Source: Thuidium tamariscinum (Eukaryota; Streptophyta; Bryopsida; Hypnales; Thuidiaceae). Taken from it: 64,000 nt of DNA. Position numbers and translations under genes: made by a program. The stretch lies in contig OX344752.2 of NCBI GenBank assembly GCA_947034885.2, positions 29,330,386-29,394,385 on the forward strand, in the 5' to 3' direction. Of the stretch, positions 8,031 through 55,048 are shown piece by piece. The notes under the pieces were generated by a model. That model had not been told where the DNA came from, ran no database searches, and was given only the letters and a program-made list of their open reading frames with translations. The first letter of the stretch is position 1. Each line of letters starts with the position of its first letter.

Positions 8031-10417
8031 GGTGATGAAATTTGCAATAGATCTTCAAATAAAATGAATTTCTTCACGACATTCTCTCCATCTGCACGGA
8101 AAATTACATAATCATCTCGTCGGCGGAGGAGAAATTAAAATGAAGCGACATCAGCTAAAAGCCAGTCATTCAAACATTGCAACATAATCGTCCAAAATTT
8201 CTCGCTTACAACCAAAATGATTGAATTGATTTCAGTAGCTGCACCTCTTTCAATCCTGCATGCTCGATTTCTCTAAGACTCCAAACCCTAAGTAAGCCCC
8301 AAATCTTCTAGATTTAAGAAAACGAGCAGGAAATCTAATGCTTTTCGAAGGAACTAAAGAAGAAGGTTGTACAGAGGAACGACACCAACAACAATTCAGC
8401 AAGACATCCATCACGAGAGATTCTATTCAGCAAGACAACGGCAACAAGAGTAGTGCAGCGCGGCGAGGATCACCTGAGAAAAAACGTGAAATGGATTCTC
8501 GGGATGCTGAAAAACCGAAATGCGGCAGCTTCAATTATGAGGTGCACGCATTTCTGCACTACGTACTCCCACTGAAAAATTCATAAGAATTTCAATTTTA
8601 GTGATAAAAATTCGATCTCAACAAAATTCAGTTCGTGCACTCAGAGCTCTCTCTACATCTCCCAAATAACACACACCGTCCCACACACATTAAAATGATT
8701 AAAATGAAGGACACCGTATCCTCTACCTACGATTAAACCACGGGAAAACTACGGGAAAAAAGAACCTGAGCTGCCCAAAACCCTGCCTCCAAAGAGCTTC
8801 CCAATCCTACCACCTTTGCCGAGTTGCACCGACAATAATTCTCGACAATTTACAATACTCAGACTCCCAGCAGCCATTCAGAACACAGACATCAAGCTGT
8901 AGATGCCTGATCACACAAATAGAGAAAAAAAAATTCAAAATTCAAGAAAATTTCAATCTTCGCAATCTAATATGTAACTGAGACTAGGGATAAAAAGAAA
9001 AGAAACATTCCGGAAAACCTGATATTACGAGCGAACTCTTTCTTCACAATCCACAACACCTCACCAGCAGATTGAATTTCGCACAATTCAAACGAGCTAT
9101 AAACGGAAAAGCAAGTCTGTAATCCAAAAATTGGAATCACCAGAGAGCGAATTGAAGGTCGGTCACCGACAAGTGGACTCGGGCGAGGCAAGGGACATAC
9201 TGAAATTGCAGCGACTATCCTCGGAAGCGGCGAACTCCAATGCTGCGGAAGCGAGACTGTGCATAGGAAAGGGGGAAACGGGGAATGGGAAAAGGGCGGT
9301 GTGGAGGTTTCGAAGAACGGAGGACTGTTTTGAGTGTATTCGTCACTCAGGCTCGTTTGTTTACTGATCTGTCCTGGTAATAGTATGGGGGAAATTAGTA
9401 TCACCTCGGAATTTTATTTTCGTGGAAATTGGTACTATGACATTAATATTCCAAATGCACTAATTCAAAATAGTGTGATCTTGGTAAAGTAGTATCTTAC
9501 GCATTGTTAGGACATGGTAGTGAAGTGATCTACTTTATATTACAAGTATTCTTAAATTTTTTGAAAGTTGTCTTATATTGGATCCTTATCTTGCTTCTTA
9601 TCTTAAATTGGATTTGCATTTTTGACCATATAACACTATTGCAAATACAAAGTGTCGATGGATGACTTCACTTCATATTGTCAGATTAAAATATAATTTT
9701 TTTAATCCAATCTTTTCCATTTAAGGTACTTGAATACATTTTTATTGAATAATATTGCAAATTCTTTTATTTTAATATTAATGACTTTTTATAAGAAGAA
9801 AATGCTTAATCCATGGATCACACTTGTAGTGTATTTGGGCCATTTTATTCTTGATGAGAATTTTGGCTATAAAAATGATGACTTTTGAATTTGATTTCAA
9901 CTAATGAAATGAAGCTTACCAAGGGTATTTTCAATTCTAATTGGAGATTTTGAAAAAATTCTAAATCTCAATATTCTATAGCAATACAAACTTTGGACTT
10001 GCAACCATAGTTTGCTAACTTTCTAAAGCTAAAGTGACATGATAATTTTGAATTATATCATGATTTTCTAAACTACAATATACATCTCTAGTCAAAAAAT
10101 TTGATTTCTTGAATATCTTCTGTATTTGATATGAAAACATTTCGCACTATATAAATATTTTCAAATTTTGTACAAGAATGCAATACTTTTGAATTAGGTA
10201 TTGTTGCAATTCAGACCTATGAACCTCTGTGTGTACAAATAGAAACATTTTAAAGAAAAATTTGTTGACTTTAATGGCTTATAAGGTAACTTTCACTATT
10301 TAAATGATGTAAGGTAAGCAACCTAATTTTCACTATTTTGTGTAGGTATAAAGTGGAAACTAATAGAATGATAGGTAGGGAGCCTTAAAATCATTGGACA
10401 TCAGTTAGTTCTTTTAA
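8031..10417. other. Intergenic: 5' flank of neutral ceramidase, then AT-rich DNA
   Basis: Positions 8031 to about 9400 are moderately GC-rich and likely hold the leader and promoter of the leftward ceramidase gene; a possible 5' UTR donor (CAG|GTTTTC on the minus strand) lies near 9020. From 9405 on the DNA is AT-rich with no coding signal. No transposon ends were recognised before 10414. Confidence 0.45.
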
Positions 10418-10992
10418 CCCATTAAAGACCGTGGTTGATTTAGGAGGTGGACATAGTTTTTTAATACAATTCTCAAAAAGTGCAATTTTTTGCCTTTTTA
10501 AAAAATGTAATCCTAGATCCGATTGAATAAATGAGTTCCATGGGTCAAGTCCTTGAACCACACAAAAAATAAAAGTGATCCAACGGTTCATGTCTTTGTA
10601 ATTACTCTTCAAACATTGATGTGCCATAAACATCCTTTGGCACTGGTTATAATTAGGGTTTGCTACAATTGGGTATAGATTTGAATATATTGTCTGGAAA
10701 TTGACCAAAACCTTCGAATTTATTATTTCAAACACACACATAATTGTCCTTTCCATAAAATATGCATTTTTCATTGAAAATTTCAATATAAAAGGTTGGA
10801 CCATTTCAAGTTTGGCCAAGCACAACTCACTCATTTTTGCACACAATCTCTTGAAATTGGTTTTGTTAGATGCGCATAAAGACACTCTAAATGCGTTCTT
10901 TTCTAAGTTTTTTGACATCAAATGTTCTACAAATTATAGGAGACAAAAAGTCCTCAAATCAACCCAAAAGTGGTCGACCGGTCCTTAATGGG
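10418..10992. mobile_element. TTAA-flanked CCC-ended element, copy 1 (575 bp)
   Basis: Left end CCCATTAAAGACCG and right end CGGTCCTTAATGGG are inverted copies with one mismatch and an offset base. The element is bounded by TTAA on both sides (10414-10417 and 10993-10996), as expected for TTAA target duplication. An open frame of 175 codons from the ATG at 10918 (minus strand) crosses most of the element and runs past its left end to 10391; it resembles no transposase I know. TTAA duplication with CCC-type ends is the signature of piggyBac; Kolobok elements also use TTAA. No transposase is encoded, so this is a non-autonomous copy. Confidence 0.8.
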
Positions 10993-10996
10993 TTAA

Positions 10997-12946: not shown

Positions 12947-15900
12947 TCAGTCGGGTTGATGGTCGTCGGCAGGTGTCTTTGGCGGAACAGGCTTCCAGTC
13001 GGGTTTCTCATCCCAGTAGATGTCGTACCAGATGTGGCCCGGAATTTTGTCCATCACACAACACCATATTCCTGTGTAGCTCTTAATCCTACGTTTAAAC
13101 TTTTTGCCTCGCACCTGCACACAAAAGATCAATCAAACCGATCAATACAGTGTCACATATCCAATGAAAAAAAGTTACGCACATGTGTTACTGGATAACA
13201 GGTCAAGACAGGTAGTGGACAAATCTCTCTACAAAAGATTATAAATCAGGACATTCAGACCTTGGAGATCTACAGCTCTCTTGAGACCACAGGGAAGGAC
13301 GGGGATTATCACTCTAGACATTACTCTTTTCCATCTGGGATACGCCATAAGGCAATGAAAGCAATAGGAGAGGGTGTTATGGTGTCGTATAATTAAATAT
13401 AGCAATAGTCTAATGTATGCGAAAAAACTCAGGAATAAACCTGATGCGCTCCTCTTTCACGTCCGGTTCAATGACCACAGGAAGGGAAACGTAACATGAA
13501 TAAATATTTCCTGCAATATCACTGAATTATGCAATTAACACTTCAAGAGCTGAAAACTGCGGGCAGATGAAGATCATCTACTTACAGTGTTTGTGAACCC
13601 TCCGAAGACATCAATTGATGATGAAAACTCCAGTATTTTGTACTTGTTGAATAAATTTAGATGCGCAGTAAGCTGCACAGCATTGCAATTGTCAACCAAG
13701 ACTTCACGCCATTAGCAAGCGGAAGAAATATAGGAGTCTAATCCATGCCAGAACCGAGAAGCATACCAGACCAAGGTTTGCAAACCTAAGACCTCACACA
13801 AATCAGACATTAAAAAAGACTGCAATTGAAACATAATCGTAACAAATCAACCTCTACGTCTGTGCTATTTTTGGGGAGCTTGAAAACTCCAGAGAACGCC
13901 TTGTCTGCTCGCGAGCAATCTGTAGAATTTCGGTTGCATAACTTAACCTTCAACACTGACATTTTCACCTGCAGGGACCATAGGCAATGTTATTACGCCA
14001 CTCACTCTAGTTCCAGCCCAAACTTCGACTCAGAGCACAAATAACCTTTCGAAACTAGAAGTGCCGGTAAACCATTTCCAAAGTGTAGATTAATGAGACC
14101 CATGAAACTCATTCATTGGACATGAAGCAGTATGAGAATTAACAATAGTATGGAACTCTGGAACAATATTGCACATGTATCAAGTATTAGACAAAGATTC
14201 GTTCTTCAATAAACCTTTTTGTCCAACAGAGGGTTTTCTAGAAATGAGTATTCTCGGATGCCAATTGGAGGTCCAAACTCACGCTCCTCAAGGTTAGCAA
14301 CCATACGATTAACCTGAAACATAAAACCAATCAAATATCACCCATACTTTAGATTTGATTCTCACTCTGCTGGTATACCAAACCAGATTTCCACGGAACA
14401 AATGAGAAGATTTTTGAAACAAGCAAGTCGTACCATTAACCCTTAAGTGCCAAAATGGACAAAAACGACAGCTTCCATATCTAAAGGAGTTGAAATTAAC
14501 CATTTAGAAAGTATCAAGAAGGTAGCAAAATGTACCGATAGAAGGAGGAAGTCACACCCTACATTTTTATACAAAAGAAACACGTTTTGAAAGTTACTGT
14601 AATGAACTGTCTTCCGAAGTTGATTTTCTATTTTCATCTCGGGCCCTTAGGGAATAGACCATACATTGTCTCGCATTAGACAACACGATTGCCTTTGCTG
14701 TCACTCTAAAACTTCATGAAAGCTGTTATGCCGGAAAATCCGTACCTCAAACACATGATCAAGAGGAACGAGAAGAGGCTGGTTTGTTTTTGTTCCGATT
14801 AATTTACCAGGATGCCCGTACCACATACGATCAAATCGGGCCCATACAGGAGGCATAATCTGTAAAAAAATGATGCATGCGTCAAAATGCCAGAAAATTT
14901 GCAATAATCATCACAATGAATTATTGTATAAAACGAGATGTCGGTACAACCATTACACTGAACAAGTTGTCGCAAAATGAATTTCGTACACCCAAATTGA
15001 ATGAGAATCCAACTCACAAGTGTGCGATTCAGAGTAGATGCAACTGCGAGTGCTGTCCGAATTTGGATTAACTGTAACAACATATTGAGTCAGTATTGTG
15101 TGTTTTGTTTGCTCCAGTTTATGAAACATGGCAGACAAAATGATGAAAGTAGCATAAATCTATTACCATAATCAAGTAAGCGAAAGAAGAAGAGGGATAT
15201 CATATGATACCTGATAATTCACTAAATCAAAGTGGCTCTGAACAGTATGCGTTCCTTCATATAGAAGGGAAGGCGGAATGGAAGGTTTAAACCAAACGTA
15301 ACCACCTGAACAAAGTAAGACCATATTAATTACTACAATTTGTCTACTAGATAACTACGAGAGTACTGGAAACACTAGAGGAAGGAGGTGCGTCTGAAAT
15401 GAAGGAATGCGTACCAGGTGTATCGTAATACTCAGGCGGGTCATAAAACAATTTGGCTTCGCGGAGTCGGTGCCGCTTCCCCTCAGTCCCTCCAAACTGA
15501 AACGTGGTGTGCACTGCATATGGGATCAAATCCAGTTTCTTGTACAGTTCCTGTTTCCCAGATACCCAAACGTGGTTCCAAAATGGAACACGAAGTAAGC
15601 TGTCAGATGTATGATATTAAGTAGAGACTACAGGATGAAACTTTCTCATTGACGGCTTGATCAGACAGGATGTCACTAATAACATACTTCGAGAACTCAA
15701 AACAGGGAAAGTTGCGATAGGACTACCTGTATGAAGAATGTGTGCCCGCTGCAATACAAACTAACAGGTAAGATTCCCAGCTTTAGATTTCCATGATAGG
15801 CCAAGAAAAGGCCATCCTCTCCCACGGAGGGGCCTGTTTTATTCCGTGCGAGATCGTTGAATCCATTTTGATCCCAAATATTATCATCTGAAAGCAGGAG

Positions 15901-19657: not shown

Positions 19658-22076
19658 GGCTCGTGCACCACGAGCTCAATCTCTCCTCTCCCAAATCATG
19701 CCCCACTCAACACAGCTTCATCGTCACGATCCAGTTCAGATTCAACCGTCGCTTTTCGAAATTCGAAGATCATGCAAGAAGATCCGCATCCGCCATTGGC
19801 AGTGGCAAATCCTAGGCTCCGAAAGGCCCGCAATCTACGAGAGCTTCCAGCTGAAAGACATCCAAGCCAGTGCTACCTCACCCCTCGGGGCACTAAGTAC
19901 CAGGAAATTGCATAACCATTTTTGGCACCAAGCGGCCCTTGATATCGGGATCTGCTACCCCATTGCACCACGAACGTGACGGCGACCACCCGGAAAGGTA
20001 GGACTGTCCCTACATTAGAATGCACCCTGAGAATTGCCAAGAAAGAAGCGCTACTGTACTGTCTCCGAGCTTTCTACGGGAGTTCGCAAGCCAAATGTGC
20101 GAATTTAAGGATCGCTGCAGATTCTGCGACGAAATTGGTCGCCCTCACAGCACAAAACCTCGAAATCTGAAAAACCCACAAGCGTGGGAGAGGACAGAAT
20201 GGCAACGCTGACTCCAGGGAAAGTTGTGAAGAGAAAGGCAACGATTTCAGTCAGTTGCAGCTGCTGCTCCGTCAACTCCTGGCAGAGCGCGAAAATGAAC
20301 AGTGGCAAGGAATCTGAGGAGACCGCCTTGCGCAAAATTTCAAAGGGAACTGAAAGCAGCAGCACGGGCCTGCACTGACAGACAGACACACACATGGGAG
20401 GAAGAAGATGAAAGAGTGATGTTGGTCGGAAGCCCATTGTGAAAAACTTACATGTCTATTGAGGGTAGTTCTAGTAAGTCCACTACAGTACAGTACTTGG
20501 GAGCTTTTGTTGAAAAGTGGATGCAAGGTCCATAAAGCGCCCATTTAAGAGTTGAAAATTAATTTGGGGAGTTTACACTTCATGATATGTTTTGAACTAC
20601 ATTTTCCTTGAAAGACATACGGAACTAACATCTAACTCAAGTTGATTCATATGGGGACCTTCATGGAATTACTGATGGACTTTTGAAGTTGAAACATCAT
20701 AGTCACAAAAAGCATTAACATAAGGAATTGTATATTTTTTGTACATTGCAAGTGCAATGAAAAGCAAAATATACCTCTATGTTATAGGATGTTTTAGACC
20801 TTAAGTGCTTTATAGACTTCCTACCTTGATTTCAAAATGTTAACATCATTTTTTTGAATTGATTGGATGATCATCATTTTGGAAAAATTGTGTGGAGTTT
20901 TATTTATAGAGATGTTCAAGTCTTCAAGTTTCTTTCCTCTTAATGATACAATATATATGAAGATCATTATGTGGCACTCATATCATTCTTAACCTTTATT
21001 AAAGGAGCCTTTTGACCTCCTAGATTTACCATCTATTTGGTAAAAATCATGAGGAGATTTATAAGGAGTTATTCAAATCTTCATAATGTTGTTTTTTAAT
21101 GATACAACCTACAAGAGAACAACTAGAGGATTCTCCCCTTTAAAGTTCAGGAATGTATATGGCCATCCTCTAGATTGTACTAAACTCAAAATCAAACCCT
21201 TGAGAGCTAATAGAATGATGTCCAAAAGATTGTAAGAGAAAGCATAGGTACCAAATATGTATCTTTATAAATAATGATTCTTTATTAGACATTACTATAT
21301 AAAATATTCAAAAATATTGTGAATCAGATCAATATTATTTAGCTCTAAAAGTCCCTCACCTTGAAATGCCCGAAGTACTTTTTAATTCCAAAAACTTTTG
21401 AAAGATATTTTGAATCTTTTATTGTGGTCAAAATTATAACAAGTGATGTCTTTATTTTTCAAATTTATTATTGATACTTCATCCACGTTGATTTCTTCAA
21501 ACTTATGAATGTAAATAAGGAAGTTTGTTTCAAAAAGCAATCATACTCTAAAAATGATGACAATGACACAAATTTACATTTTGTTTTCTTCAAAGTACTA
21601 ACAATAAATATTTCAAGAGGCAATCACTCTTAGTGACCATTGCATTTCAATTTCAAAAATTTGTAACTAAGATAGAGGTACCCATTTCCGACTAGGGATC
21701 CATATCCAACACTATTTCCAACCAAAGATTGGAATGTGCTTTTTCTTCCATTTCAAGGTTGGGCCCAATAAAATCATAATACATGTCTTCAAGTAGTGAC
21801 CAAAAAAGTAGGAAGTAATGAGTGGGAAAGTATTTAATCTATGATTGGAATTGGAAGTGTTTAGACATTAGCTATTAGTCCAAACAACTTTTTGGCTTTC
21901 AAAAATCAAAGTAATTTCAATTTTGTGGACAAAAATTTGAAAAATCTTGCAGTCACCATATTTCCTATCTTCCTACTTGGTGAAAAATTCACTTGCGTCA
22001 GACTACTCACAATTTGCTTGAAAATCTTATTAATAAGTAATTAACTACAGATACCTCTACCATAATTCCATGAAGC
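19658..22076. other. Intergenic: XEG113 5' flank and AT-rich DNA
   Basis: Positions 19658 to about 20430 have gene-like composition and probably carry the promoter and 5' leader of the leftward XEG113 gene. From 20540 to 22076 the sequence is AT-rich with no coding signal or recognisable ends. Confidence 0.45.
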
Positions 22077-22418
22077 ATAAGAGGATTTTTGGGCCTCCAA
22101 GAGACTGTTTTAGGGCTATTCCTTGAAATTGTTCCCACTGTTGCAGACCAGCCCCTGTTGGTCTAAATTTTTGAATTTTGAAAAAAAAAAATTAATTTTT
22201 TTTTCAAAATTTTCAGAATGTATTAGAAAGAAAAAAATGATTAAATTTTTTTTTCAAAAAAATATTTTAAAAACATCTAATAATTAATTAAAATAATTAA
22301 TTAATTAATATTATCTAACGTGGCAGTTGCTCGACCACATTAGCATGGGATTCCTAGAGTTCCCAGTGCATTCCCAGCATTCAGGAACTCGCAGTCTTGT
22401 AGAAGGGCCACAAATCCT
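22077..22418 (-). mobile_element. MITE with AAGAGGATTT ends, copy 1
   Basis: About 342 bp. The left end is ATAAGAGGATTTTTGGG. The right end fades at AAATCCT, lacking the last bases of the repeat. Aligned against the reverse complement of 27038-27384 it matches along the whole length, with GTTTTAGGG near one end, an AT-rich core, and CTCGACCACAT plus CCTAGAGTTCCCA near the other. No open frame, so non-autonomous. The duplication is not recoverable. Confidence 0.7.
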
Positions 22419-25400: not shown

Positions 25401-27037
25401 ATTCCTAGACTTCTAGAGGAATATAACACAACAAATTTTATTGAAAAAAAATTGGATGAAGGAAATACAAGCCCCTAAAGTTGCAACCATCAACTTAATT
25501 TGGTGAATTCAAATTGAACCTATAAACTTTGATTAGCTTCCAAAGCATCCACACAAATTTTGAATTGATCTTGAAAATTTTACCACACTAAACTAGACAA
25601 TAAATCTTTCCCAACAAGTTTTATTGAATTCACATATTAGGTGCAAAAATTACAATACTTTTAATTGGATTGTAAGAATACTTTTCATCCCCATAGGCAA
25701 TGAAGGGTTAAAGCGATGATGGGTTTTCATGTCAATTGTACATGTAGGAAGATCTATCATAGGATTTTGCAATTGACTTTTATGTTGCAAATTTTGCAAT
25801 AAGGGAACTAGCATTAATTCAATTATTGCTAATTCATTAATAAAGTTAGCTTGCACTAGTTTTGAGATTATACAAATTTATAAGGCCCTTTATCCAATAG
25901 TTAACAATATTTTCATTCTTAATCAATTAATAAGTATTTCAGTCTACCTTTCATCCAATTTCATCCTTCTTTCATTCAATCTCATCCAAATTTCATCCAA
26001 ATGTTCACACTAATTGTGCCATATTCATCCAAAATTATTCAAATTAGTATAAGTTAGCCTTTGTACTATTCAAATGCTCATATTAAGTTGTGTAGAATAT
26101 ATTATGACATCCATATTGTTTCACACACTCTAATTTATTAGATATAGATCTTGATCTATAAATTCTTCTATTTGATTGATTCATTGAAATTATTTACAAA
26201 CAAATTTTGTTCTGCAATCACTTTATTTATTCACCTATCAATGAAATTATTAATGTGGTGGGTACCAACTTGGTAAAAGGTCAAATTTTACTAAAGTTAT
26301 ATCTAATATAATTTTATATATGGATTTTATTTTGATACTATGAATCTCTATTTTTTAAGCATTACAATTGAGTTTTGGATTTACATTAATTAAGACTTGT
26401 AGCTTCATACAATATTTATTTTAATATTAAATTAAATGATCAACTATACAGCATAAATAAAAGACTTGTGTTTTGCTTCATTTGTCAATGTGAAAATATA
26501 TTTCTAGTTTTCTATTGCATATCCTTAGTGTGACAAAAGCTTATTATTTTGGTCAATATTTGGTGTCATTGCTTTTAGGCTAATTTCTTTTCTTCATCCT
26601 TTGTGAGATTTATTCCAATAATTTGGAAAGCCTATTTCAACTTTATAAGGGTTTTTGTAATGGTGCAAATGACTCTAATTTATCAAAGTCATCCAATTTA
26701 AGTTTATGTAGGCTAAAATGTTATTGTATTATACAAATTTCTATATTTTATTTTAATATAATATTGTTGGTTCCTAAGACATGAATTAGTTTAATTAGTA
26801 CAAGACCTTTTACTATCTTGCATAAATCTTCAATGATTTTGGCATATTTTGTATGAACATTTTAATGACATTTAGAAAAAACAAGGTACATAGATGAATT
26901 CGGATATAAACCACACCATTTGAGATAATATGAAAATTGTATAGACTATATTATATTGATGTTACCAAAAGACAATAAAACTCTAATTATGTTGCTTTAA
27001 AATTTGCTAATATAAGTCATTAATCAGTACTATCTAC
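22419..27037. other. AT-rich intergenic stretch
   Basis: No gene found. Positions 25190-25630 contain diverged units of roughly 130 bp built around a TTTTACCACAC-like segment followed by an AACTAGAC-like one. Related wording occurs inside the TTAA element at 28567-29488, and GAAGGG followed by TTAA occurs at 25692-25701, so a degraded relative with only its right end visible may lie here. The rest is unremarkable. Confidence 0.4.
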
Positions 27038-27384
27038 ATAAGAGGATTTTTAGCTGGTTTACAAGATTGCAAGTTCCCAAACGCTGAGAACGCATTGGGA
27101 ACTCTAGGAATGCAGTGTTGATGTGGTCGAGCGACTACCATGTTAGAGAATACTAATTAGTTAATTCTTTTAATTAATTAATTATTTATTTATTTAAAAT
27201 CTTGAATTTAAAAAAAATCATTTTCTTTCTTTTTAAAATTTTCTGAAATTTTCTGAATTTAATTTAATTTAATTTTTTTCAAAATTCAAAAATTCAGACT
27301 AGTAGGGGGCTACTCTGAAGCAATGAGAACAATTTCTGGGAATACCCCTAAAACAATCTTCTTGGGGGTTAGAAATCCTCTTAT
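27038..27384 (+). mobile_element. MITE with AAGAGGATTT ends, copy 2 (complete)
   Basis: 347 bp with terminal inverted repeats ATAAGAGGATTTTTAG and CTAGAAATCCTCTTAT-like (actual right end TTAGAAATCCTCTTAT). It is in opposite orientation to the copy at 22077-22418. The core is AT-rich and non-coding. A clear target duplication could not be defined, so the superfamily is not assigned. Confidence 0.75.
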
Positions 27385-28566
27385 GATACTATTATTATGA
27401 ACTTGCCACTTTTAGCTAGAATAAAAAATAATTTAAAAATAAAATTAAAGAATTATTTTCAAAATATTTATAAACATTTTCAATATTTTAAAAATTCAAA
27501 AAATTAATGTTTTAAAATTAATTAAATATTATTATCTAATGTAGTAGTCTTTTGACTATATTAGATTATTTAATTACGTAGCAGAGTACGCACAATTCCC
27601 ATAGTTGGAAACTCACAATCTTCACAAGGCCTCAAAATTAAATCATCTACTATAGGAAAAATCACTAAAAGGAAACAACAATCAATCTAATAATTAATTG
27701 AGTGTGGTTTCATCCAATTTTGATTAGGTCTTGCGACAAATGAATGAAATTGTGGTTTTTTAAATGGTGAAAATAGGTGTATCCCAAATTGGTTGACCCT
27801 ATGTAGACTCTTATGAATCAATTTTGTATATTTTAATGCATAATTGCTTTTGGACTTTTATATTTTGGATTATAAATAAAGTAATTCAAGACAATCATTT
27901 TTTCAATTGACTTCTTGTTCATCATCCAAATTGAACATTGAATCTTGAAAATGAATTTTTTTTTATACAATTGACCCCTAAACACCCTATCACCCATGAT
28001 GAATGTTGTACAAAAGCACTTTGTGCAATTATTATTCATTAAGAGGAGTTGCAATTTTTATTTTAAAATATTAATGGAAACAAAAAATAATGTTCTTTGT
28101 GAGTCAATGATACGACCTTGTTATATAATTATGATCTATGCCTTGAAAAGAAGCAACAAGATCAAATTGCCCATGAGGGGGAGTGGTCAAATGAGCCCCT
28201 AAAAACTCTTCATTTACAATTGTCTTTTGACCAATCTTATTATTATGGTTTTGGAGAAATTTCAAAAATATTTTTACAATCTTTAGGTTTTGTGTCTCAA
28301 AAAAATATAAAATTAGACTTGTAAGTATGTGTGTAAAGGCTAAACTTAGATTATGAATCACTTTCAATACTTGTAGAAACTAAGGTACACTTGTGTAGTA
28401 TATTCCATCAAGGCTTTTTTTTGGGCAAAAATTAGCTATATCTATTAGAATTTGACAAACCAACATTCATCCCTCTACTAATTGGCCTATAGAGCAAGGC
28501 GAGCAAGTGGGATAAGTTTGGTTCTTCCAAAGCCTTGATTTCTATAGTGTGAGTTTTCTCCTTTAA
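27385..28566. other. AT-rich intergenic stretch with a partial MITE relative
   Basis: Positions about 27415-27640 resemble the right half of the AAGAGGATTT MITE (the TATTATCTAATGTAGTAGTC segment followed by an ACTCACAATCTTCACAAGG segment) but are strongly diverged. Beyond that no coding signal; short open frames here look like chance. Confidence 0.4.
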
Positions 28567-29488
28567 CTCCTAAAAGCCCATGGTCCCCTCGGGGGACAAT
28601 TTGGAGTTTAGGCATGTTCCGATGACCTTAATTTTTAGTAAAATTTTTTGAAAATTTCTCATAAGATAGGAAAACTTATTCGCTTTGTAGAATTATAATT
28701 TTTATTTCAATTGGTGCTCGGGAGCAAAAGTTATATCATAGAAAGTCCAAATTTTAACTCAGTAGGTAGAAAAATAAATCCACAAAAACTTGAAATTAAA
28801 TTAATTTTTTTTTCTTAAGGATCATATTTTTGTCTACGTGTGAAGCTTTGCTTCATTCCATTTGGGTTAATTATGTGAAGTTATGAACAATCTTATTTTT
28901 TGGGCAGTTTGAGTATCTTCTTGAAAAAATAACTTATAGGATTCATTTTTGAATGCAATATTCACATTTCTTTTAAGAAAAATTGGTTGACAAGGTTAAA
29001 TTTGCTTGCTAGAACAATCTCATTGTTAGAATTATTGTGTTTCAATTCCATCTTAGAGCTATCAACAATTTAATTTTTCTTTCAATCTTGGACCTACCTC
29101 TACTTAATAATTTTTTAAAGAATGAAAATCAAGCATTTTTTTTGGAAATTTTTTTCCTAGACTTTCAGCTCAATTCTTATACACAATTTAAAAAAAATTC
29201 AAAGTCCATAGTGTAAAAAAATTCAACAAATGGCAATCAAAGTCATCTAAAATTGCATGATAGTGTTTAAGAAAACTATGTTTTCCAACTTTGAATGCTC
29301 ATATCTTCTAATCTATTCAGTCAAACTTCATGAAATTTTTACCACATGATCTAAGACAAACAAAGTAGAATATTCTATAATTAGATTCTATGATAACACT
29401 TTTGTTTGTTTGTTTGGATGAACGTAGCAAAAATGACAGTTTTGAGTGGTTTCTGACAGAAAAATGGCCTTGCCTGGGCCTTGAAGGG
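28567..29488. mobile_element. TTAA-flanked CCC-ended element, copy 2 (922 bp)
   Basis: Bounded by TTAA at 28563-28566 and 29489-29492. Left end CTCCTAAAAGCCCA; the right end reads TGGGCCTTGAAGGG, an imperfect inverted copy. A subterminal palindrome GTCCCCTCGGGGGAC sits at 28583-28597. The left 300 bp matches the interrupted element at 43033. No transposase frame. Ends and TTAA duplication are of piggyBac/Kolobok type. Confidence 0.75.
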
Positions 29489-29860
29489 TTAATATTTGCT
29501 TTTAACTTTGCAATGATGCTACATTATGGATTTTTATCCTAGGAGGACGTAGTCTCCCATGGCCAAGGTAGTCACTAATGTGCTTCAATTATTGATCCAA
29601 TAGGTGCATTCATTGTTTCTACAATGAACAATGAAGTCATCCATTGGACACTTTGGGTTCTCAACATTGTTCTAATTCTAATACTATAAGAATGCAACAT
29701 ATCTAAATGGCTTGATAGATGACTTTAGTGTTAATTGTAGAAGCAAAAAATTTACCTACTTTTTCAATAATTAAAGTATTTTGGTGACTCCCTTGGACAT
29801 TGGGAGTTGCATATTTCAAGGGTTAACCCAATACAGGTACTAGAGACACTTAGTATTTAA

Positions 29861-31854
29861 CCCCTCACCGCCCCAAACAGAACAGAGTCATGACCACGTT
29901 TTCTAAGCGACCCACAGATTTTTTGACCTTGTGGGCAATCGAACAATGTATACGAGACTTCACCACCGTTGATTTCTGTAGATGGCTTTACTATGGGTTG
30001 ATAATCCTTGTCTGATCTGCAAATCATGCTCAATGCTCAGACATTATAATGTTTGATCAGAACAACTTTTCCGGAAAACAGTGTCGTGGTCCACGGCTTC
30101 CGAAGTTTGCATCAAAGCTGTAGGTAGCTCGAATCATAGAACTGAGCCCTGCTTCCAGCAAGTGGGGAGATGCGGTTTCTCAAGAAGCATGCCAAATTGC
30201 AAGGGTCGACAAGCATTGGAGGGGGCGGAAACTGGTCTGACATCTGTGGCGAGGAGAGGCATTGACCGGCGCTAATCAGCTTCCAATGCAAGGTGGACGG
30301 GTAATAGGAAGTCACACTTCCTTGTCCATAAATTAGTGTGGGTTTCAGATCATCGCATGCAAAGGTGAAGTAGTTACAGGATAGCCGGTTGAATAAGAAT
30401 AGTTGCAACAACTGTATCCACAAATGAAGACTTATTGCTGAAAATATATACATAGTAATTTCAAAGGTTTAAGTTTATAATCAATAGTCCAACTTCCAAA
30501 ACTTCCAAAACGTATAATATCAAAACTCTAACTTCAATATCTGCAATAGTGCGTTCCGACTGTCTTGTGAAAACTTGAAGTTGGAAAGTTGATTCTAAAT
30601 TGTGACTACAGCTTACCGGAAATATGCTGCAACTTCTAGTCAAAACTGGACGTTGGAAAACAGGCTCTAAATCGCAGCTAAAGCTTTAGAGGACAGGATG
30701 CTGCAACTTTGAAAAAAACAAACACAAACGGGTCATTGCAAGAAACACCTGTATTATTTTGTGTCACACGTTGCATGTTGATCAGTTTTTTAGCCATAAC
30801 TTTTGTGTTTTAGCTCCAAATGACTCAAGATTTATAGGAAAGGTATTCATAACTATTATACACCTTCCTTGATTTTTTCTTAATTTTCAAAAATATTTTA
30901 CTATCCAAAAATAGACCCCGATTGGATGTCACACTTGGCAGTTTAGGGTTTTTTAGTACCTGAGCTATACCTTTTTTTAATGATTTTGAGATGAAATTTG
31001 GATGAAATGGTCTTTTAATAGATTTATAGCTCTCCAGGGAAGGATTTTTTTTAAAAGTTAATTTTGTGAGGTGTGGAGGTCTACAAAGTGAGCTCCCTTC
31101 TGTTTGTATTTTGAAACATATAAAATATTATTTTGGTGGGTTTTTTTGTGAATGACCATGTCCATAAAGTTGTTGCAAATGGTCACTTTTTATTTTTTGA
31201 AAATACTTATTTTTACTATTTTTCCCTAATTTTTGAATCAAAGTACCATTTTCTTGAGATTTGGCACTTTTCAAGTTCTCCTACTTAGAGAATTTTTCTA
31301 TCAATTTCCTTCGGTAGAAACCTTCATTTTAGAGGTATATACATTATTCCTATTTTAAAACTTTTTTTAAAATTAGTTTTCTAATTTTATAGTACTCCTG
31401 AAAAATTCATGAGTACTGTTGCAAAATGCAATAAATAGGAGAGGTGTTTCTTGCAATGACCCAAACCTCCAAAAATTGCTATTGCATTCGACTCGATGCC
31501 TACAAACCCAGTAAATTCACATCAATCTTACTACATGATAACTAGTTGATGATGTCTCCGAGTCCAAATAGTCTGAGTAGGATCCAAGGCCCAACGGTCT
31601 GTGACCGGCCCTAACAGTTCAACAACTGGATAAATGGTACAAACTGCCATGTCCGTTTTTTGGCAGTCTGAATTCAATCGAAGACTGCATTTCGTAAAGC
31701 TTATCGTTTGCCCATCCATAGACCCCGCGCAATCGACCTCCCTCAGCCATCCACTTTTGTTTTTTACGCCACCATGATCAGCTGTGTGTGTTGTAAGAAA
31801 CTAAGCTTTGCAAATCGAGAGGGGCCATTTTTGGGCCGCTGGGGCGGTGAGGGG
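29861..31854. mobile_element. TTAA-flanked CCC-ended element, copy 3 (1994 bp including a nested insertion)
   Basis: Perfect 15-bp inverted ends CCCCTCACCGCCCCA, bounded by TTAA at 29857-29860 and 31855-31858. A 733-bp GGGT-family element (30730-31462) and its 4-bp duplication sit inside, so the element itself is about 1.26 kb. The left segment (29880-30450) is less AT-rich than its surroundings but holds only short open frames with no recognisable domain. This has the best-preserved ends of the family. Confidence 0.85.
30730..31462 (+). mobile_element. GGGT-ended element with 4-bp duplication, copy 1 (733 bp)
   Basis: The left end GGGTCATTGCAAGAAACAC is matched by an inverted right end reading GTGTTTCTTGCAATGACCC, a 19-bp perfect TIR. 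AAAC flanks both sides (30726-30729, 31463-31466). It is inserted inside the TTAA element at 29861-31854 and is therefore younger. Non-coding. Near the left end it carries CATAACTTTTGTGTTTTAG and CTCCAAATGACTCAAGAT, shared with the other copies. Confidence 0.9.
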
Positions 31855-31858
31855 TTAA

Positions 31859-32455
31859 TGGATGACCAAGAATTCTTCTATAAAAGATAGAAGTGCAATT
31901 ATTCATCCTCAAAATTTTGCCCACAGAAGGGGAGCTCTTACACAAAAGTTTGACCTTCAATGATTACTATTGGAATTTTTTTAAAGTAGATGATTTCCAC
32001 AGTTTCAAAAAGAATGATTTCCATAGTGACCCGCCTGTCCTAAAAGTCAAACCAATTTTTTTCCCAAAATTTTTGCTGGGATTTGCAGTCGGCAGTGACT
32101 TGCCTACTTGCAGTGATACTCCACCAGGCCGACCTATGAAGCTGCAGTTTGCCGGCTTGATTGAGGTACTCGAGTGGAGATGCTCTTTCCGGGGTGTGAA
32201 AACGGTTCAGCAATTTCGGACCTCATACTAACTTACGAAATGGATAGCTCAACGAACAAAACGAGAACCACCGCTCGCCACCTCGCGGCCTCCAGCTCGC
32301 TCCGTCACTCCCGATCTCCTTCTCTCTCTCGCAACTTCGCATTGCAACCAAATCCTTCCTTTGGTATCCAATCCTTGCTTTGCATTTAAATCTTCGCATT
32401 GCGTTTGAATCCTAGCATTGTAGTAGTGGCACTCTTGCATTGAATTGCAAACACA
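31859..32455. other. Intergenic: 5' flank of the plastid-type gene at 32456
   Basis: Composition shifts to gene-like from about 32070. A run of imperfect 19-21-bp repeats based on GCATTGC...AAATCCTT occupies 32338-32415, directly upstream of the start codon and probably within the 5' UTR. No clear TATA box was identified. Confidence 0.4.
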
Positions 32456-35400
32456 ATGAAGGCGATGAGCTTACTGCATCGCTCTTCCTCTCTCGCGTTC
32501 ACCCATCCTCCATTACCCGGCAAGATCACGCGCACGACGTACCCGTGCTTCCACTGCAGCCTCCACCACATCAACACCTCCACTACAACATCTCCCTCTG
32601 AGCACGCCACGTTCCTCAAAGAAATCGCATCCGTAGAGCCTCCCCCTTCTCTCCCCTCTCTCCTGAGCGTCCTCCAAGCCCAAGGCGAGATTGTAGTCTC
32701 CCCTTACACTCGCAAGGGCATTCTCCCGCTTGCCATCCCCTTAACCGAGTCTCAAGATGGGGACATCACGGCTCTCTTACGCTGGCCTACTCCTGTCGTT
32801 GGAATGGATGTGCCTGTAGTGCGAGTGCGAAGCTTTGGAGTTACGTTGTTGGCCAAGAGTCCCGAGGAGTTCATTCATCGGGCGTTGGTGGAAGAGGACG
32901 TGGCCGGAAGCTCAGGACGAGTGGAGGAGAGTGCAGGGGAAATTGGGAGGGAGTTGTATCGGAAGGGAGGGTTTAGAGAGTCAGAATTGAGTAGCGTAGA
33001 TGTGTATTTGATGAAGAAGGTGGGATTGTTTCCGGATGTGTTTGAGAGGCTGGCGGAAAGGCATTTGGAGAAAGGGGATGAGGTTTCGGCGTTGGTGACG
33101 GGGGAGTATTATGCGAGTAAGAAGCATTTTCCGGGGTTTGGGAGGCCGTTTGTGTTTAATGCGGAGCTGATGCTCAAGGTGGGTGTAAGGCTGAACGAAA
33201 TTGGTGCTATTTCGAAATTAGGGTTTGCGTCTACACTTGAGAGGCGGGAATGGGATGTTTTCTGGCGATTGAATGCAGTATCAAGGATTGAACATTTCGA
33301 TTGCATTTTGGAAATTGGAGGTGGATTATGCGTTGACAGTTCCGTAAAGAGTGAATGACGAATCTCCTCGTAGCGTCGATGTTAATTCTGAATTGGGGTT
33401 CCTTTCAATACTTGAGAGCGCAGGAATATCAATATTTGTGATTAGCGTTTAACTATTGCATCAAGCATTGCGCCTGTAGTTGCTGTTTTTGTAATTTCAA
33501 TTTGAAATAGCGATCGGGTTTAGTGTTGAGAGTTCTGTAAAGATTAACGCCTAATTTCAGTAAGTAGTTATGAAATCAGTTCCGAAATTTTCAGCTCAAG
33601 TAATCCTGCAGACCAATTTGTTTGTGGCAACAGCCTCAATACACTTGGTTGAAAGCCTAAACGCAACAATTGGCAAAGTTCTTAACGTTAACCTTGCCAA
33701 TTGCAGTTTGACTAGGTTATCTACAGTACCTCGGGGGGCGGGGGTTCCGTCTACTGGACAGCTGATTTTCGGGACAGTTGATTTGGTTCAGAGTTGGTTT
33801 TGGATTGCTGTGAGAGATTGGCCTTTCACAAGCTTCTTTCGGGAGTCTTCTGCTCCTGTTTCTAATATGGATTGGTCGAAGGGCAGAATCGGTTTGTGAA
33901 TTGGTGATGAAAGAAAGTAAATTTCCTATAGGAATGATATAATTCTGGTAGCTTTGGTTCCAGTAGGAAATTGAGACTCCAAATGATACTTAGCTGCATT
34001 ACAATGTGGGGGTTTACGTTAGAAACTGCCCTCCATGGCGTTACAATTGGTAGGGCTTAAGCTGCTGGGGTTTCTGGGTTAGATGTTTTCCTGGTGCAGA
34101 ATCGGTGGGTGCTAATGTGTAAGAAGGGTATTTCATGGCAAAAGTAGCTTTCATGTATTTTGAATGAGAATTGCGTGTGATTGTAGGTGGGACGCAAGTT
34201 GGAGGCGAAAGACGCAGCCCGATGTGCGCTGCGGTCCCCTTGGTGGACATTGGGATCTAGCTATGCAGATGTGGCCAGCATTGCTGGCTGGGGTGAGGAG
34301 CAAATTGAGTTCATGCGAGAACGCGTCTCCGAAGAGGGCCGCCGAGAAGATCTTCTCAAGGGCAAGGATCTAGCCCAGGTCTGTCCACCTCCCTCAATAC
34401 TCTTAACCTTCTTTACTGGTACACTCTATAATTTCTCTTTCCTTGTATGACCTGTAATTTTTTCATGTTGTGTACACATCGGATTGGATAACTTCCATAT
34501 GAACACTTTCGAAACACACTTGAGAGTGCATTTAGAATTCTGTTTGTCCCTGTGAGGAAGCGTCCTTAGAGAGGATTACCCTCATAAGTACTAATATGGC
34601 CTCTAGTGGCACATTCTCTGCTCACTCACCAAGTCGTACTAGGATACTATGTTGAAAACTCTTTCTGCACTCTTATGACCATGAATTCTTTTGGCTCTCA
34701 CATAATTACTCCAATGTTATCTTATAAAAATTTGCATACAAATATGGTAATCAAATTTCAATAAGTGTGAGACATTTTGGACCACCTTCTTTAAATGTTT
34801 CAAATAATAATTCAATGTCACTTTTAGATCTTAAAATGTTATAGATTTGCTTTGATAATCATGTGCATTTGGGTGCCTAGGTTGTGCTATTAAGTATATT
34901 GGTCTATGCTCAAAATGCTATGATGATGTTCTTTATCATAATTAAACATTCCTTGCATATTCAAAATTGTCATTTTACATACACATCTCTGTGTCAACTT
35001 GTGAATACTTGTGAGTGCATTTAGAACCACATTTATCCCCCCCAAGGCAATGTCATTTGTGAGGAGTTGCGTGTCTATTGGGAATGCTTATTCCAAAATC
35101 TTTTGATAACTTAGAATTTCCACCTTGGAGATCTCTCTTTAATAATAAGTCAAAATGCTCCCTACAACAGAGGCAAACTATTCTTTAGTTGTCAAATTCT
35201 TAACTTGAGCAAGTTGAGAGTAGCAAACAACCCTTGGACAAGCTACTATGTTTATGAAAGACACCCTATATTCATGGAGTAGTAAAGTTATGTTTGCACT
35301 TGATTGGAATAGTTTTTAATTGGATTGGTTTTGATATAGGTGGCAGTAGACCAAGCGGCCTTCTTGTTGGACCTTGCTGCAGTAGATTGCACTTGGGATG

Positions 35401-35477
35401 ATGTGCGGGAGCAGTTGGCCAACTTTTACAAGGAAGCAGGATTGGAAGATATTGCCAAATTCATCAATACTGCCTAG
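32456..35477 (+). CDS. Conserved plant plastid-type protein of unknown function, three exons, 350 aa
   Basis: Exons 32456-33178, 34187-34378 and 35340-35477, all GT-AG and phase 0. The start ATG at 32456 is followed by a Ser/Thr/Arg/His-rich, acid-poor stretch (residues 1-45) typical of a chloroplast transit peptide. The middle (about 55-230) is a conserved but unnamed domain with RWPTPVVGMDVPVVRV. The C-terminal part (242-350) carries the invariant SPWWTLG (258-264), an IAGW-EEQIEF stretch and DQAAFLLDLAAVD. Plant homologues of this kind exist in angiosperms (I recall At4g34090-like proteins, some carrying the unexplained name cyclin delta-3), but it has no cyclin box. Function not known. 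Reading through the first donor gives a stop at 33356-33358, which argues for the splice. Confidence 0.88.
34379..35339 (+). other. Intron 2 of the plastid-type gene, with an internal repeat pair
   Basis: 961 bp. Two diverged direct copies of about 100 bp occur around 34480-34580 and 34960-35065, sharing TACACATC, GAGTGCATTTAGAA and a GTGAGGA-type block. I assign no family to them. Confidence 0.4.
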
Positions 35478-39800: not shown

Positions 39801-40414
39801 ATAATTGAAGCGCACGAGGGATAAAGCACGAATACAAGTACAGTCTGATGAGTTTAAGATAATCACCGATGTAATAGTATAGATAGGGACCATTAGAATA
39901 ATGCCTATCAGCCACTTTTGCTGCTGCAACACCGCCACAAGAAACGATGTCAACATCCCACTCAATTAGCAAGTCGCCAAGTACCCCTGGGTGTATTGTG
40001 AGGAAGATCAAAATATCTTATCAGAACACGTACCTTCTGACCTAAGACTGGAACAACAAATTACATGACACTCTGCTTGGCTTCACAATCACAGTTTATG
40101 AGCACGACGTAAAAATCACAAAATAATGCACATTCTGCGAAATCTGTTAATACTCTGCAGCATAATTTGACATATAAACTCGTCGATATTCGGAATCTGA
40201 CCTTGGGTTCATTGTAGCCCGACAGATGTTCAAACAAAAGGTAGAATGAGAGGGAGAGGCTGAAGATCACAAATGCAGATGCGATTGCTATCGCCCAGAT
40301 AATCAAAGTCATCTCCCCAAATTTCGAAGAAAAACTTTGAAGCGCTGCAGGATGAGCTACCATTTGCCACGCTCCCCTCCCCATGATTGTAGCTGGGAGC
40401 CCTAAGTCCCCCAT
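36862..40414 (-). CDS. LAZ1: LAZ1-like DUF300 (Ost-alpha/TMEM184) membrane protein, eight exons, 610 aa
   Basis: Exons (minus order): 40414-40202, 39923-39867, 39702-39594, 39403-39219, 38834-38746, 38629-38350, 38072-37893, 37581-36862; GT-AG, phases agree, 1833 nt. A seven-pass membrane protein of the organic-solute-transporter-alpha family; Arabidopsis LAZ1 proteins act at the tonoplast in brassinosteroid signalling and cell death. Seen: first membrane segment at about 36-60, GYNEP (66-70), IGIILMVPIY, DCYEAFALYSF, GIVQY, YPYITIVQNFSQMWALYCL, CFKAVVFVTWWQG, ICIE. The last exon is a 239-residue acidic, soluble tail with repeated QDNVSKMND/QDNVSKIHD units. The start is the first ATG of exon 1; a longer frame starts only at GTG. 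The exon 2 acceptor is a NAGNAG, so a one-residue (Gln) variant is possible. Gene intact. Confidence 0.95.
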
Positions 40415-43028
40415 GATTGAAATCTTTAAAATAGTAACTTTCGATACTGTAGGAGGACGCAGTTGACTGCACAGTCGAGTGCAATCTTCTGACACCTTCA
40501 CCACTCTTTAGCAAATTTTCTACTAACGACTATGTAAAGATCAGCAAAGAATTTTCATAGTATGCGCAAGAGACGCGCATGCAAAGCTTGATCCACAATT
40601 AATACAAATCTAACCCTAACCAACAATGACCCCTGTCTCCTCATTTTCTCATAGATTGATTTTCCCTTGCAGCAGTCCACATTAGTCTTGCTGCGAAAAT
40701 CGGGAGTAGATATGAGTAAATGGAATAACAGAGTCCGGATAATTCAGAAAACCTGCAGACACAAGAAACAAGCACCACGTTATTATCAGTCAGTAAGATA
40801 CTCTGTCGAGTCCCCTGTAGCACTTCCCGCCCTAGATCGACACTCTAAACTCTCTATCGAACCTTTGAGCCCACCGTCAAGCAATTGAAACAAGGTCAAG
40901 ACAACGTAAGAGAATCTCACAATCGATAGCCAAATTCTCACACCGAAATTAAAATTCAGAGAAACTATCGCCTATCACAGATCATCCAATTTAATGAAAC
41001 ACCATGAAGCTTACGAGAGCCAATCGACAAAGTTCAAGTCGACTATATGCGTAGCTTGAAACCACCATTGCAATAGGTAAATACTGTCATTGACGCGCAT
41101 TCAACCACTGCGAAACTAAACACAGGAATCAACAATCTCCAGTTGAAAGCACAATCTCGTCCAATCTCTCTCGTTTATTCAAAAGGCTACGTGCTGCACT
41201 AACACCGCTATTCGTATCAAGAAACCAAGACAACATCAAACGAAGCACATTATCCCGAGAATAGTGAAACAATACAATCTTATTCCTCAAAATTTTCTAC
41301 TGCTGAGTTCCTCACTAGTTATCCACAAGAAACGACGCAATTAGCCGCAAAAAAACACCAATAGCTGACCTCGCGTCCTTCAAACTTGAAATTCTCCAAT
41401 TTCATCCTCCCGCACGTTTCAGATTCTCAGTAAACGAGGACCCGCAGCAGCAGCTACACACCTTATCGCGACGGAAGAGGGCACAATACGGCCTGCAATC
41501 TCTGGCAAAACCCCTGCAGGACCACTGGCCTGTTTCGCTCCCCTTCCGAAACGAGATGAGCGTGGCGAACCAAGTGACTAACATAGTTTTGTATTAGTGA
41601 CATGAGTGCAATTAGAGAGGTGATTAAGGGAGAAACACCCATTTCCGTCCTTGTACCTATTCCTGGATCTTAGAGTACCATTAAATCTGTCCGTAAGCAT
41701 TCATGAAAGCATATGACAAATGTTTAATTCTAATTTGCTGACGCAGTTGTAAGACACATGTATAGTTTTCATTCATTGACAACTGATTTCACCACGTGTT
41801 CAGTTAAAGGTACACCTACAGGATAGTTCCAGTGGTTTAGGGAGCCAACACTTTGAAAATTTATAGAAATTACATATTGATTCCGAAAAATTTTGATTTA
41901 TTTTTTGAATATTCATGATTTTCACTCACTAATACTGAAAAAATATCAGTTTTAGAAAACGCTGCCTCCAATTTTGCTGAATTCCTTATTTGGACGGTTT
42001 TGGGTGTTTCCACTGTAGTGACCATCTTCGTGTAGTCTCCGTCGGAGTAACGTGACTAGTGAGATGACCCGGCCGTCGAGTATGCAGCCACGTGCCTTCC
42101 ACTTGTCAGCGTGCTGTCCGACATGCAAGTCGAATGCTTGATGCAGACGCACAGTGGACGAGTGAAGGCCACCTTTACTGCGGTGGTCGAAGATTCGGAT
42201 ACAGCCAAGAATGTTTATTTTTTTTAAATTATTTAATTAATAATTTTCATCATTCGCTTTGTAACTTGGAGTTGAGATGCAGATGATGATCTACAGGAAG
42301 GGTGCCATTGGAAAAGGTTCAAAGCAATTTCATTGGACAAGATTCAAAGCAATTTCATTGGCCAAAGATTCAGTTTTGTCCTGTAGGGCATGCACACCAA
42401 ACCAGATGTCAACTTGAAGTAGCACCATGTGGTCATCCACTCCTCCCAAATTTCAAGATGAAGCCATAGTTATAAGTTAGTGGACAAGTTTGGGATCAAG
42501 TTGGGAAGTGGTCCCAAATTTTGTTTGGTAGACAAATAAACATGTTTATTTAAGGAAAAAAAAGTTGTAAAGGACTTTCTATCGAAGAATAATGCAATTG
42601 TAAAGGAACTTTCATAGATATAACTCTTGTGAACGTTCAATTTTTAGTCTGAAGCCATGCATTGGATGGACAAAATCCATACTAATATGGCAACTTCCCT
42701 CTACTTCAAGGTACACATAGTGAGGCGTTTGTCCACTACTAGTAGACATCCAAGTTTGAATTGGCTTAAGAGCATCCCTACCAAGGGCTATCCTATATCT
42801 ATCTCCATGTCAAAAGGGGATCAAAGAAAGGGGATCAAAGATGAAGATAGGGAAGGCAAGCACCCGCCAATTCTTTGTTGGAGCTTCAACTTATTGCTAA
42901 AGACAAGCAATGAGAAGTCAAAACAAAGTTGTATAAACAATATCAAGGATAAAGGAACAATATTACCACAAATCAATGAAACATGATTCATACTACAACG
43001 GTGAAATTATGTTTTGGAATTACTACAT
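40415..43028. other. Intergenic: LAZ1-like 5' flank and AT-rich DNA
   Basis: Positions 40415 to about 41590 have gene-like composition and probably hold 5' UTR exons and the promoter of the leftward LAZ1-like gene. A small GC-rich patch at 42060-42200 has no recognisable feature. A direct repeat of about 25 bp (TTCAAAGCAATTTCATTGG) occurs twice at 42319-42361. No gene called. Confidence 0.45.
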
Positions 43029-43032
43029 TTAA

Positions 43033-43238
43033 TTCCTAAGTCCCATTGTTCCCTTGAGGGACAAAATGGACTTTGGACAAGCTCTTAAGTGTAGTCTCAA
43101 TATTTGTCATGATTTTTTGAATTTTTGGTGAATATAGAAGAAGACATCAACTTCCAAAAAAAATTTCAATTGGTGCTTAAGAAGAAAAGTTATGGCCCCC
43201 AAAGCCTAAATTTTAGTTTAGCAAGCAAAGAAATTCCC
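43033..43238. mobile_element. TTAA-flanked element, copy 5, left part (interrupted)
   Basis: Starts TTCCTAAGTCCCATTG after TTAA (43029-43032), with the subterminal palindrome GTTCCCTTGAGGGAC at 43048-43062. It matches copy 2 from 28567 to about 28783. At 43239 it is interrupted by copy 4; homology to copy 2 resumes at 44084 and runs to about 44170. The right end is not found, so the element is truncated. Confidence 0.65.
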
Positions 43239-43242
43239 TTAA

Positions 43243-44079
43243 CCCCTAAAAGCCCAAGGGGTTAGGACAAAACACAAAAGTGTTATAAAATATAAGTGTT
43301 ACAACTTTGTTGAAGTTATTATCAAAGAAGATAATGTAAAACACAAAAAGTAGAAAGTATCCGTATAGTCAAAGTAAAAAAAATATTTTTAGATTATTTT
43401 TAAATGAGTTTTGAAGATATAACTTCAAAAATTCACCAAAAATACAATTTCTATTTTTAGGATTTGAAATTTTTTTTGATTGGTCAAAGTTGTGTTTTTT
43501 ATTGATTCTTAAAAAAATGCAAAATATTCAACCTCTAAAAGCCGAAGAGATTAAGACAAAATACAAATTTGTTATAAAATATAAGCTTTACAACATTTTT
43601 GAAGTTAGCATCAAAGAAGATAATGTAAAGCACAAAAAGTAGAAAGTATCCATATGATCAAAATTTAAAAAATATTTATAGATTCTCTTCAAATGAATTT
43701 TGAAGATATAACTTCAAAAATTCACTTAAAATACAATTTCTATTTTTATGATTTGAAATTTTTTTTTATTAGTCAAAATTGTGTTTTTTATTGATTTGTT
43801 AAAAAATAAAAAGTATTTACTAATGAGAGCATCAATACTTCCCCCAAATAGTAAGTTTTTCAATACTAAGCAATTTTAGACACTTTGTACTATTTCTCCT
43901 TTTTTTTGCTATAACTTTTTTTTGACCGTACTGATCTTAGTTTTGAATATCAATGTTGAAAGAAAACCCAATTTTTTCAAAACTGAAAAAAAAAAAATTT
44001 GAATTTTTTTTTTTTTTGCCCGAAAATTCTGCCCGAAGTCTGGCAGTGACCAGAAAATGGTCGTTTGAGCGCTTAGGGG
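43243..44079. mobile_element. TTAA-flanked CCC-ended element, copy 4 (837 bp), inserted in copy 5
   Basis: Left end CCCCTAAAAGCCC, right end GCGCTTAGGGG, flanked by TTAA at 43239-43242 and 44080-44083. It interrupts an older relative. Its interior is a tandem duplication with a period of about 289 bp (43250-43519 and 43540-43808), each unit holding AAGAAGATAATGTAAA and TGAAGATATAACTTC. Non-coding. Confidence 0.8.
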
Positions 44080-44083
44080 TTAA

Positions 44084-47649: not shown

Positions 47650-47652
47650 TAT

Positions 47653-55045: not shown

Positions 55046-55048
55046 ATA

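Follow-up and report, generated by a model that had tools for sequence, protein, structure and literature searches.

The window analysed in this study is a stretch of 64,000 nucleotides of Thuidium tamariscinum (assembly GCA_947034885.2, contig OX344752.2, positions 29,330,386 to 29,394,385), and it carries four putative non-autonomous transposons, E1 to E4, each placed between two TTAA tetranucleotides. With these TTAAs included, E1 lies at 10414-10996 (no strand assigned; 575 bp inside the TTAAs; ends CCCATTAAAGACCG and CCCATTAAGGACCG), E2 at 28563-29492 on the plus strand, E3 at 29857-31858 (no strand assigned; perfect 15-bp inverted end CCCCTCACCGCCCCA) and E4 at 43239-44083 on the plus strand (ends CCCCTAAAAGCCC and CCCCTAAGCGCTC). 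The TTAA is intact at all eight sides. The elements begin with CCC or CTC; the left end of E2 has CTC while that of its relative in another genomic stretch, L012, has CCCCT, and a left end, TTAACYCCTAAAAGCCCAWGG, is common to E4 and E2. Over 13 compared bases the inverted ends matched at 13 positions in E3, 12 in E1, 10 in E4 and 9 in E2, and a longer count by eye gave 15/15 for E3 and 13/14 for E1. An earlier note on this DNA had placed four elements with CCC-type inverted ends between intact TTAAs at these sites, and all four were confirmed.

As a chance control, the window was shuffled 300 times under a first-order Markov model, and TTAA-bounded CCC/CTC/CCT pairs were scored over 13 bases. 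Two pairs with at least 12 matches were observed and none was found in the shuffles; there were three pairs with at least 10 matches (shuffle mean 0.023) and five with at least 9 (shuffle mean 0.18, maximum 3), one of these five being a cross-pair between the left end of E2 and the right end of E3. E1 and E3 are secure on the window data alone. E2 is secured by a full copy in L012 (8909-9830; 922 bp, 78% identity), in which the ends match at 13/13 and TTAA is present on both sides, and E4 by 39 other near full-length matches in the genome together with one copy in the stretch L020. Within the window no interior is shared among E1 to E4, apart from the similarity between E2 and its decayed relative E5, which is described below. 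The earlier note had spoken of a family; with their differing interiors, the elements make up several families, and at least four kinds can be told apart.

The genome searched was the window's own (363,211,507 bases in 19 contigs). The best 40 of 1,327 candidates from a DNA search with E4 were scored, and all were near full length, the window copy included; 37 of them cover positions 1-845 and the other three cover 1-842, 2-845 and 2-845. Apart from the window copy they are 94-96% identical to E4, and with the L020 copy (8889-9736, 94%) there are at least 40 other copies in the genome. The left-end region of E4 contains a 288-bp tandem duplication (43241-43528 and 43530-43817, plus strand, 87% identity), and the same duplication is found in the L020 copy. 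TTAA was present on both sides in ten of ten full-cover copies, whose left flanks are 28% identical on average, and in seven of ten more copies, a set that included all three with the short match; these three deviate on one side, with TATC, CTAA and GTAA. The L020 copy has TTAG on both sides, which is consistent either with duplication of four bases at a variant target or with the same change on the two sides. It is reported that target site duplications of piggyBac occasionally differ from TTAA, with TTAG and CTAA among the examples (part of PMC10813416). In total, 17 of the 21 E4 copies examined have TTAA on both sides, a count to be read with the fact that the query ended in TTAA, which biases full-cover copies towards retaining this sequence; the informative part of the E4 edges is that the homology ends at TTAA and the flanks are unrelated.

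The genome has 41 occurrences of the 18-base end of E3 (counted with its TTAA) and none of the reversed control. The exact end forms six convergent pairs 1,262-2,002 bp apart, E3 itself being one of them, against 0.0024 pairs expected within 2.1 kb. A shorter relative of E3 in L037 (1501-2616) has TTAA on both sides and is 77% and 84% identical to the two outer parts of E3. Mini-elements of 80 bp, in which two E3-type ends bounded by TTAAs make up almost the whole sequence, were also observed in L029 to L032. The last 23 bp of E1 match an end beside a TTAA in L022 (95.8% identity, 24 columns, E value 0.003).

Positions 1-143 of E2 align with positions 1-143 of a 5,143-bp element in L027 (69%, E value 1e-17), and positions 647-930, up to the last base of E2, align with 4865-5143, up to the last base of the L027 element (67%, E value 1e-29). 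An open frame of 774 codons in this element has similarity to transposases. By these alignments, E2 is made up of both ends of an L027-type transposase element with another middle between them, and the L012 copy of E2 shows the corresponding alignments with L027.

The decayed relative E5 is the host of the E4 insertion. Its left part lies at 43029-43238 (plus strand), where the E2 homology starts at a TTAA, and the homology continues beyond E4 at 44084-44170 (plus strand). With E4 and one TTAA excised, the alignment of E2 with E5 spans 304 columns at 64% identity (E value 1e-27) and starts at the TTAA of E2 itself. The excision lifts the alignment score from 109 to 174, a score that two of 500 random excisions of E4 length within 42001-45000 also reached. 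The score was 178 with both TTAAs of the empty site removed, 174 with one kept and 170 with both kept. E4 was inserted into E5, and a paralogous empty site of this sort cannot fix the length of the duplication.

A search with the profile PF13843 (DDE_Tnp_1_7, the piggyBac transposase) gave 116 scored matches out of 657 first-look candidates, the best at 5.7e-80, while none of 14 control genomes matched in the same search. We examined twenty stretches of 9.9 kb around transposase matches in the upper range of scores. In 19 of them a TTAA and an end beginning with CYY flank the transposase on each side, and the two ends agree at no fewer than 10 of 14 bases, a figure obtained without a chance control by taking the best pair of many in stretches around the best matches; the twentieth, L023, has too little sequence beyond the transposase to show both ends. 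The ends in these stretches are similar, not identical, to those of E1, E3 and E4. The transposases are diverse, and the other kinds among the examined loci range from 74% down to 34% identity to the L009 protein.

Eleven loci, L009 to L019, are copies of one 5,096-bp element with 0-3 mismatches pairwise, eight of the eleven being identical. Their flanking DNA differs in each case, and TTAA is present on both sides in all eleven, the ends having been located by TTAA. The open frame of the element, 1,023 codons long, takes in the complete DDE domain (translated for L009 and L019), and the 499-residue transposase core is 99.8-100% identical across the eleven copies. The 1,023-codon protein matched PF13843 at 5.7e-79 and, among the PDB structures, piggyBat (9c0f, 2e-26) and Trichoplusia ni piggyBac (6x67, 4.7e-24). 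The aspartates of the motifs VDES, TDNF and GVDTADQ align on aspartates of piggyBat, and we take these three to be the catalytic triad. In IMG/VR, no relative of the transposase core and no exact E4 or E3 end was found. The identical copies indicate that the 5,096-bp kind moved very recently, and the 94-96% identity of the E4 copies that E4 moved earlier; the decay of the E2/E5 pair suggests that the activity has been long-lasting.

The superfamily was examined by scoring each of the 932 inward-reading 13-mers next to a TTAA in the window with two matrices, a 13-position piggyBac matrix built from published coral piggyBac-type ends (PMC2872659) and a Kolobok matrix built from Xenopus Kolobok ends (PMC6004289). 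The eight ends of E1 to E4 took ranks 1, 2, 3, 4, 5, 6, 8 and 11 with the piggyBac matrix and ranks between 249 and 762 with the Kolobok matrix, and the decayed end of E5 ranked 113 and 298, respectively. The remaining high piggyBac ranks belong to two lone ends (ranks 7 and 10) and to an unrelated site at 39140 (rank 9). In the literature, piggyBac termini are given as 5'-CC..GG-3' (in part of PMC10045372), and conserved end starts of CCCTC, CCCTT and CCCAT, beside CACTA, are described (within PMC10813416). Our elements show a TTAA target duplication (E1 to E4, the E4 copies and the 5,096-bp element), short inverted ends starting with CCC or CC[C/T]T, and relatives that encode DDE_Tnp_1_7 with a DDD triad, homology to the ends of such an element being shown for E2 only. 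For E1, E3 and E4, it is the ends and the TTAA that point to piggyBac.

Taken together, the data suggest, with a probability of about 0.95, that E1 to E4 are non-autonomous piggyBac transposons resembling miniature inverted-repeat transposable elements (MITEs). This agrees with the earlier note, which had favored piggyBac and expected TTAA-flanked genome copies, as seen for 17 of the 21 E4 copies examined. It had also predicted a partner transposase elsewhere in the genome, and 116 PF13843 matches were found, one such element having ends homologous to those of E2.

Among the alternatives, the one that survives best, though still at very long odds, is that E1 to E4 belong to Sola3 or to another little-known superfamily that duplicates TTAA, as Sola3 does. 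Sola elements have been reported in plants (part of PMC9033089), but the ends of our elements match the piggyBac matrix, and the relative of E2 encodes PF13843.

Non-autonomous Kolobok transposons are a still poorer explanation. Kolobok and piggyBac have the TTAA duplication in common, and Kolobok termini are of the form 5'-RR..YY-3' (extract of PMC9587614); the ten Xenopus copies of one table start with AG (PMC6004289). E1 to E4 do not have such termini but start with CCC or CTC and are of the CC..GG form. We rejected Kolobok on the ranks obtained with its own matrix and on the homology of E2 to a piggyBac transposase element.

Of the same slight probability is the explanation that E1 to E4 are Tc1/mariner or Stowaway-like MITEs with a TA duplication, the ACCC starts lying within a chance T-TA-A. 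Stowaway MITEs are common in plants, and any TTAA can be read as T-TA-A. A TA duplication leaves the outer bases free, but the outer T and A are present at eight of eight positions in E1 to E4 (chance 9e-5), and on both sides in 17 of 20 edge-checked E4 copies, which mostly cover the whole of a query ending in TTAA. These outer bases at E1 to E4 and the E2 homology led us to reject it. That the TTAA and CCC motifs arose by chance in AT-rich DNA, as the weak inverted ends of E2 and E4 might by themselves suggest, is the least credible explanation of all and was rejected on the shuffle control and on the further copies or ends elsewhere in the genome.

Several observations weigh against the assignment of E1 to E4 to mobile piggyBac elements. 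Judged by the inverted repeat alone, E2 (9/13) and E4 (10/13) are weak. In four of the 21 E4 copies at least one side does not read TTAA, and for E1 the evidence from other loci is confined to the end match in L022. The middle of E2 (144-646) has no alignment to the L027 element, and the identity at the ends is 67-69%. None of the 20 stretches of 9.9 kb has an exact E1, E3 or E4 end on a transposase element, and stops interrupt 42 of the 116 transposase matches (table count). Moreover, the support for mobility comes from sequence.

No transposase relic was found in E1 to E4 when chosen stop-free pieces (5 strings) were compared with Pfam, a scan that covered E1, E2 and E4 in part and E3 apart from its nested MITE. 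The sole Pfam signal of the scan was a sub-threshold Castor1_N match at 0.021 in pieces of E1. A long open frame at 10391-10933 on the minus strand has 173 codons inside E1, a length reached in none of 2,000 shuffles under each of two Markov models. The 173-codon frame showed no Pfam match, no PDB match and no clear codon-position pattern, and its single-sequence fold had a mean predicted local distance difference test score (pLDDT) of 38.7. We do not claim this frame as a gene.

As for the mechanism, the transposase made by an intact autonomous piggyBac element would bind the 13-15 bp ends of intact and stripped elements alike. The bound elements would then be cut out at TTAA and inserted at another TTAA, and the TTAA of the donor site would be restored without a footprint, as in the characterised piggyBac. 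We infer these movement steps from the known superfamily; the target site, ends, copies and transposases were seen in this genome itself.

T. ni piggyBac and piggyBat, to which our transposase is homologous, target TTAA and have CCC-type ends, as do the elements here. In contrast to them, about 500 of the 1,023 codons in the frame of the 5,096-bp element precede the DDE domain, and an extra coding block of about 123 residues lies upstream of the transposase core, at about nucleotides 630-1045 of the element, in seven of eight elements compared, two of them (L024 and L026) being weakly similar. In L009, which stands here for L010 to L019 as well, the block is in another frame and overlaps the start of the transposase open frame. 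It is 61-68% identical between L009 and each of L021, L022, L025 and L028 (E value 3e-50 or better) and 40% in L020, and it is recognisable in L024 (27% to L009) and L026 (21%), which match each other with an E value of 5e-14. In the L027 element it was looked for and not found. In all five members looked at, the well-conserved part ends in FPFPK and is followed by GTNGA. The GT after FPFPK could be a splice donor, with the block as a putative 5' exon of the transposase; the block could also be a second gene. It had no Pfam match in seven of seven members, and its PDB matches were insignificant (best E value 0.14).

The elements can also be compared with the piggyBac MITEs of corals (CMITEs; part of PMC2872659), which likewise have TTAA and are non-coding, and for which nested insertion and tandem arrays are described. 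The coral ends, such as CCCCTCAGTGTCCG in one CMITE and CCCTTTAACGCCC in one coral piggyBac, are similar to those found here. CMITEs are 96-108 bp long (same part of PMC2872659) versus 0.6-2 kb for our elements, but the 80-bp elements with E3 ends are also present in this genome; the host here, moreover, is a plant. The plant MITE superfamilies of a survey of 207 genomes are, as far as its accessible sections describe them, also short and non-coding with inverted ends, and the word piggyBac occurs 0 times in its text (PMC12550479).

piggyBac is known mainly from animals and is little described in plants; an insect piggyBac is in wide use for gene transfer. The plant literature, in the portions available, is divided. 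A review of land-plant transposons does not name piggyBac in its available portion (PMC9033089), and a 2008 grapevine paper lists, in the part at hand, five plant superfamilies without it. On the other hand, PiggyBac is counted among the angiosperm MITE superfamilies (a passage of PMC10004981) and among plant DNA transposons (a passage of PMC10794571), and piggyBac-like elements in plants are mentioned in passing by two papers, one of them PMC10813416. A table on ferns contains 1,230 PiggyBac RepeatMasker fragments, and an excerpt on a haptophyte microalga gives six (text) or seven (table) piggyBac families. Our literature search by title gave no title naming plant piggyBac elements, which is not proof of absence. 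The superfamily is known and E1 to E4 are assigned to it; the host and the scale are unusual.

We further propose, as a reading whose odds we regard as evenly balanced, that the genome has its own large, still mobile world of plant piggyBac elements. It would comprise a number of transposase lineages (identity to one query protein 34-100%), one of them expanded very recently (eight of eleven copies identical over 5,096 bp), would carry the upstream block as a 5' exon for a new N-terminal domain or as a second gene, and would feed several MITE families. If so, this plant would have a piggyBac system that is natural and endogenous to it. The 116 transposase matches and the very young family make the entry of piggyBac into plants, its control there and the working of an endogenous plant piggyBac testable. 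They also suggest that a piggyBac class can be missed when plant MITEs are classified within the usual superfamilies alone.

Among the other piggyBac-type features of the window, a lone right end, TTAACCCTTCATTGCCT, lies at 25695-25711 on the minus strand (piggyBac-matrix rank 7/932), with no partner found, and a lone left end, TTAACCCTTAAGTGCCA, lies at 14436-14452 on the plus strand (rank 10/932), with no convincing partner. The site 14641-14657 was considered as partner of the latter and dropped, as there is no TTAA beside it. Between E2 and E3, the palindromic GGGTTAACCC at 29820-29829 looks like two abutting piggyBac-type ends, for which no partners were found.

The MITE nested in E3 (30730-31462, no strand assigned) has the inverted end GGGTCATTGCAAGAAACACCT and is not of piggyBac type. 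It is missing from the L037 relative of E3 together with part of the neighbouring E3 sequence on each side, so that this relative is not a clean empty site. Relatives of the nested MITE lie at 53023-53750 and in the region 46612-48239; the family shows a possible AAAC duplication, and 46614-47583 forms a long inverted pair.

The window contains further repeats. Two stretches at 54842-55046 and 57410-57614 are 98% identical, almost perfectly palindromic, about 203 bp long and start with CACTACAAGAGAAAGGGGTG; with their 3-base flanks (ATA/ATA and AAA/AAA), they look like CACTA-type MITEs. A decayed tandem repeat of about 178 bp occupies 56034-56704, and 22076-22418 and 27043-27385 form an inverted repeat pair, 77% identical and 4.6 kb apart. 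A broken Copia retrotransposon lies at 60110-62975 (RVT_2, SH3_retrovirus), and PF07727 was the family matched by the Copia relic.

The genes of the window include ceramidase exons (PF04734, PF17048), a nucleotide-diphospho-sugar transferase (PF03407) and an Ostalpha-type gene (PF03619). From the sequence we read the host as a green plant, probably a land plant. To our knowledge, none of the ceramidase, PF03407, Ostalpha-type and Copia families is confined to plants. The PF03407 gene presumably resembles plant arabinosyltransferases, and the gene at 32450-35470 has what we take to be a resemblance to a plastid protein.

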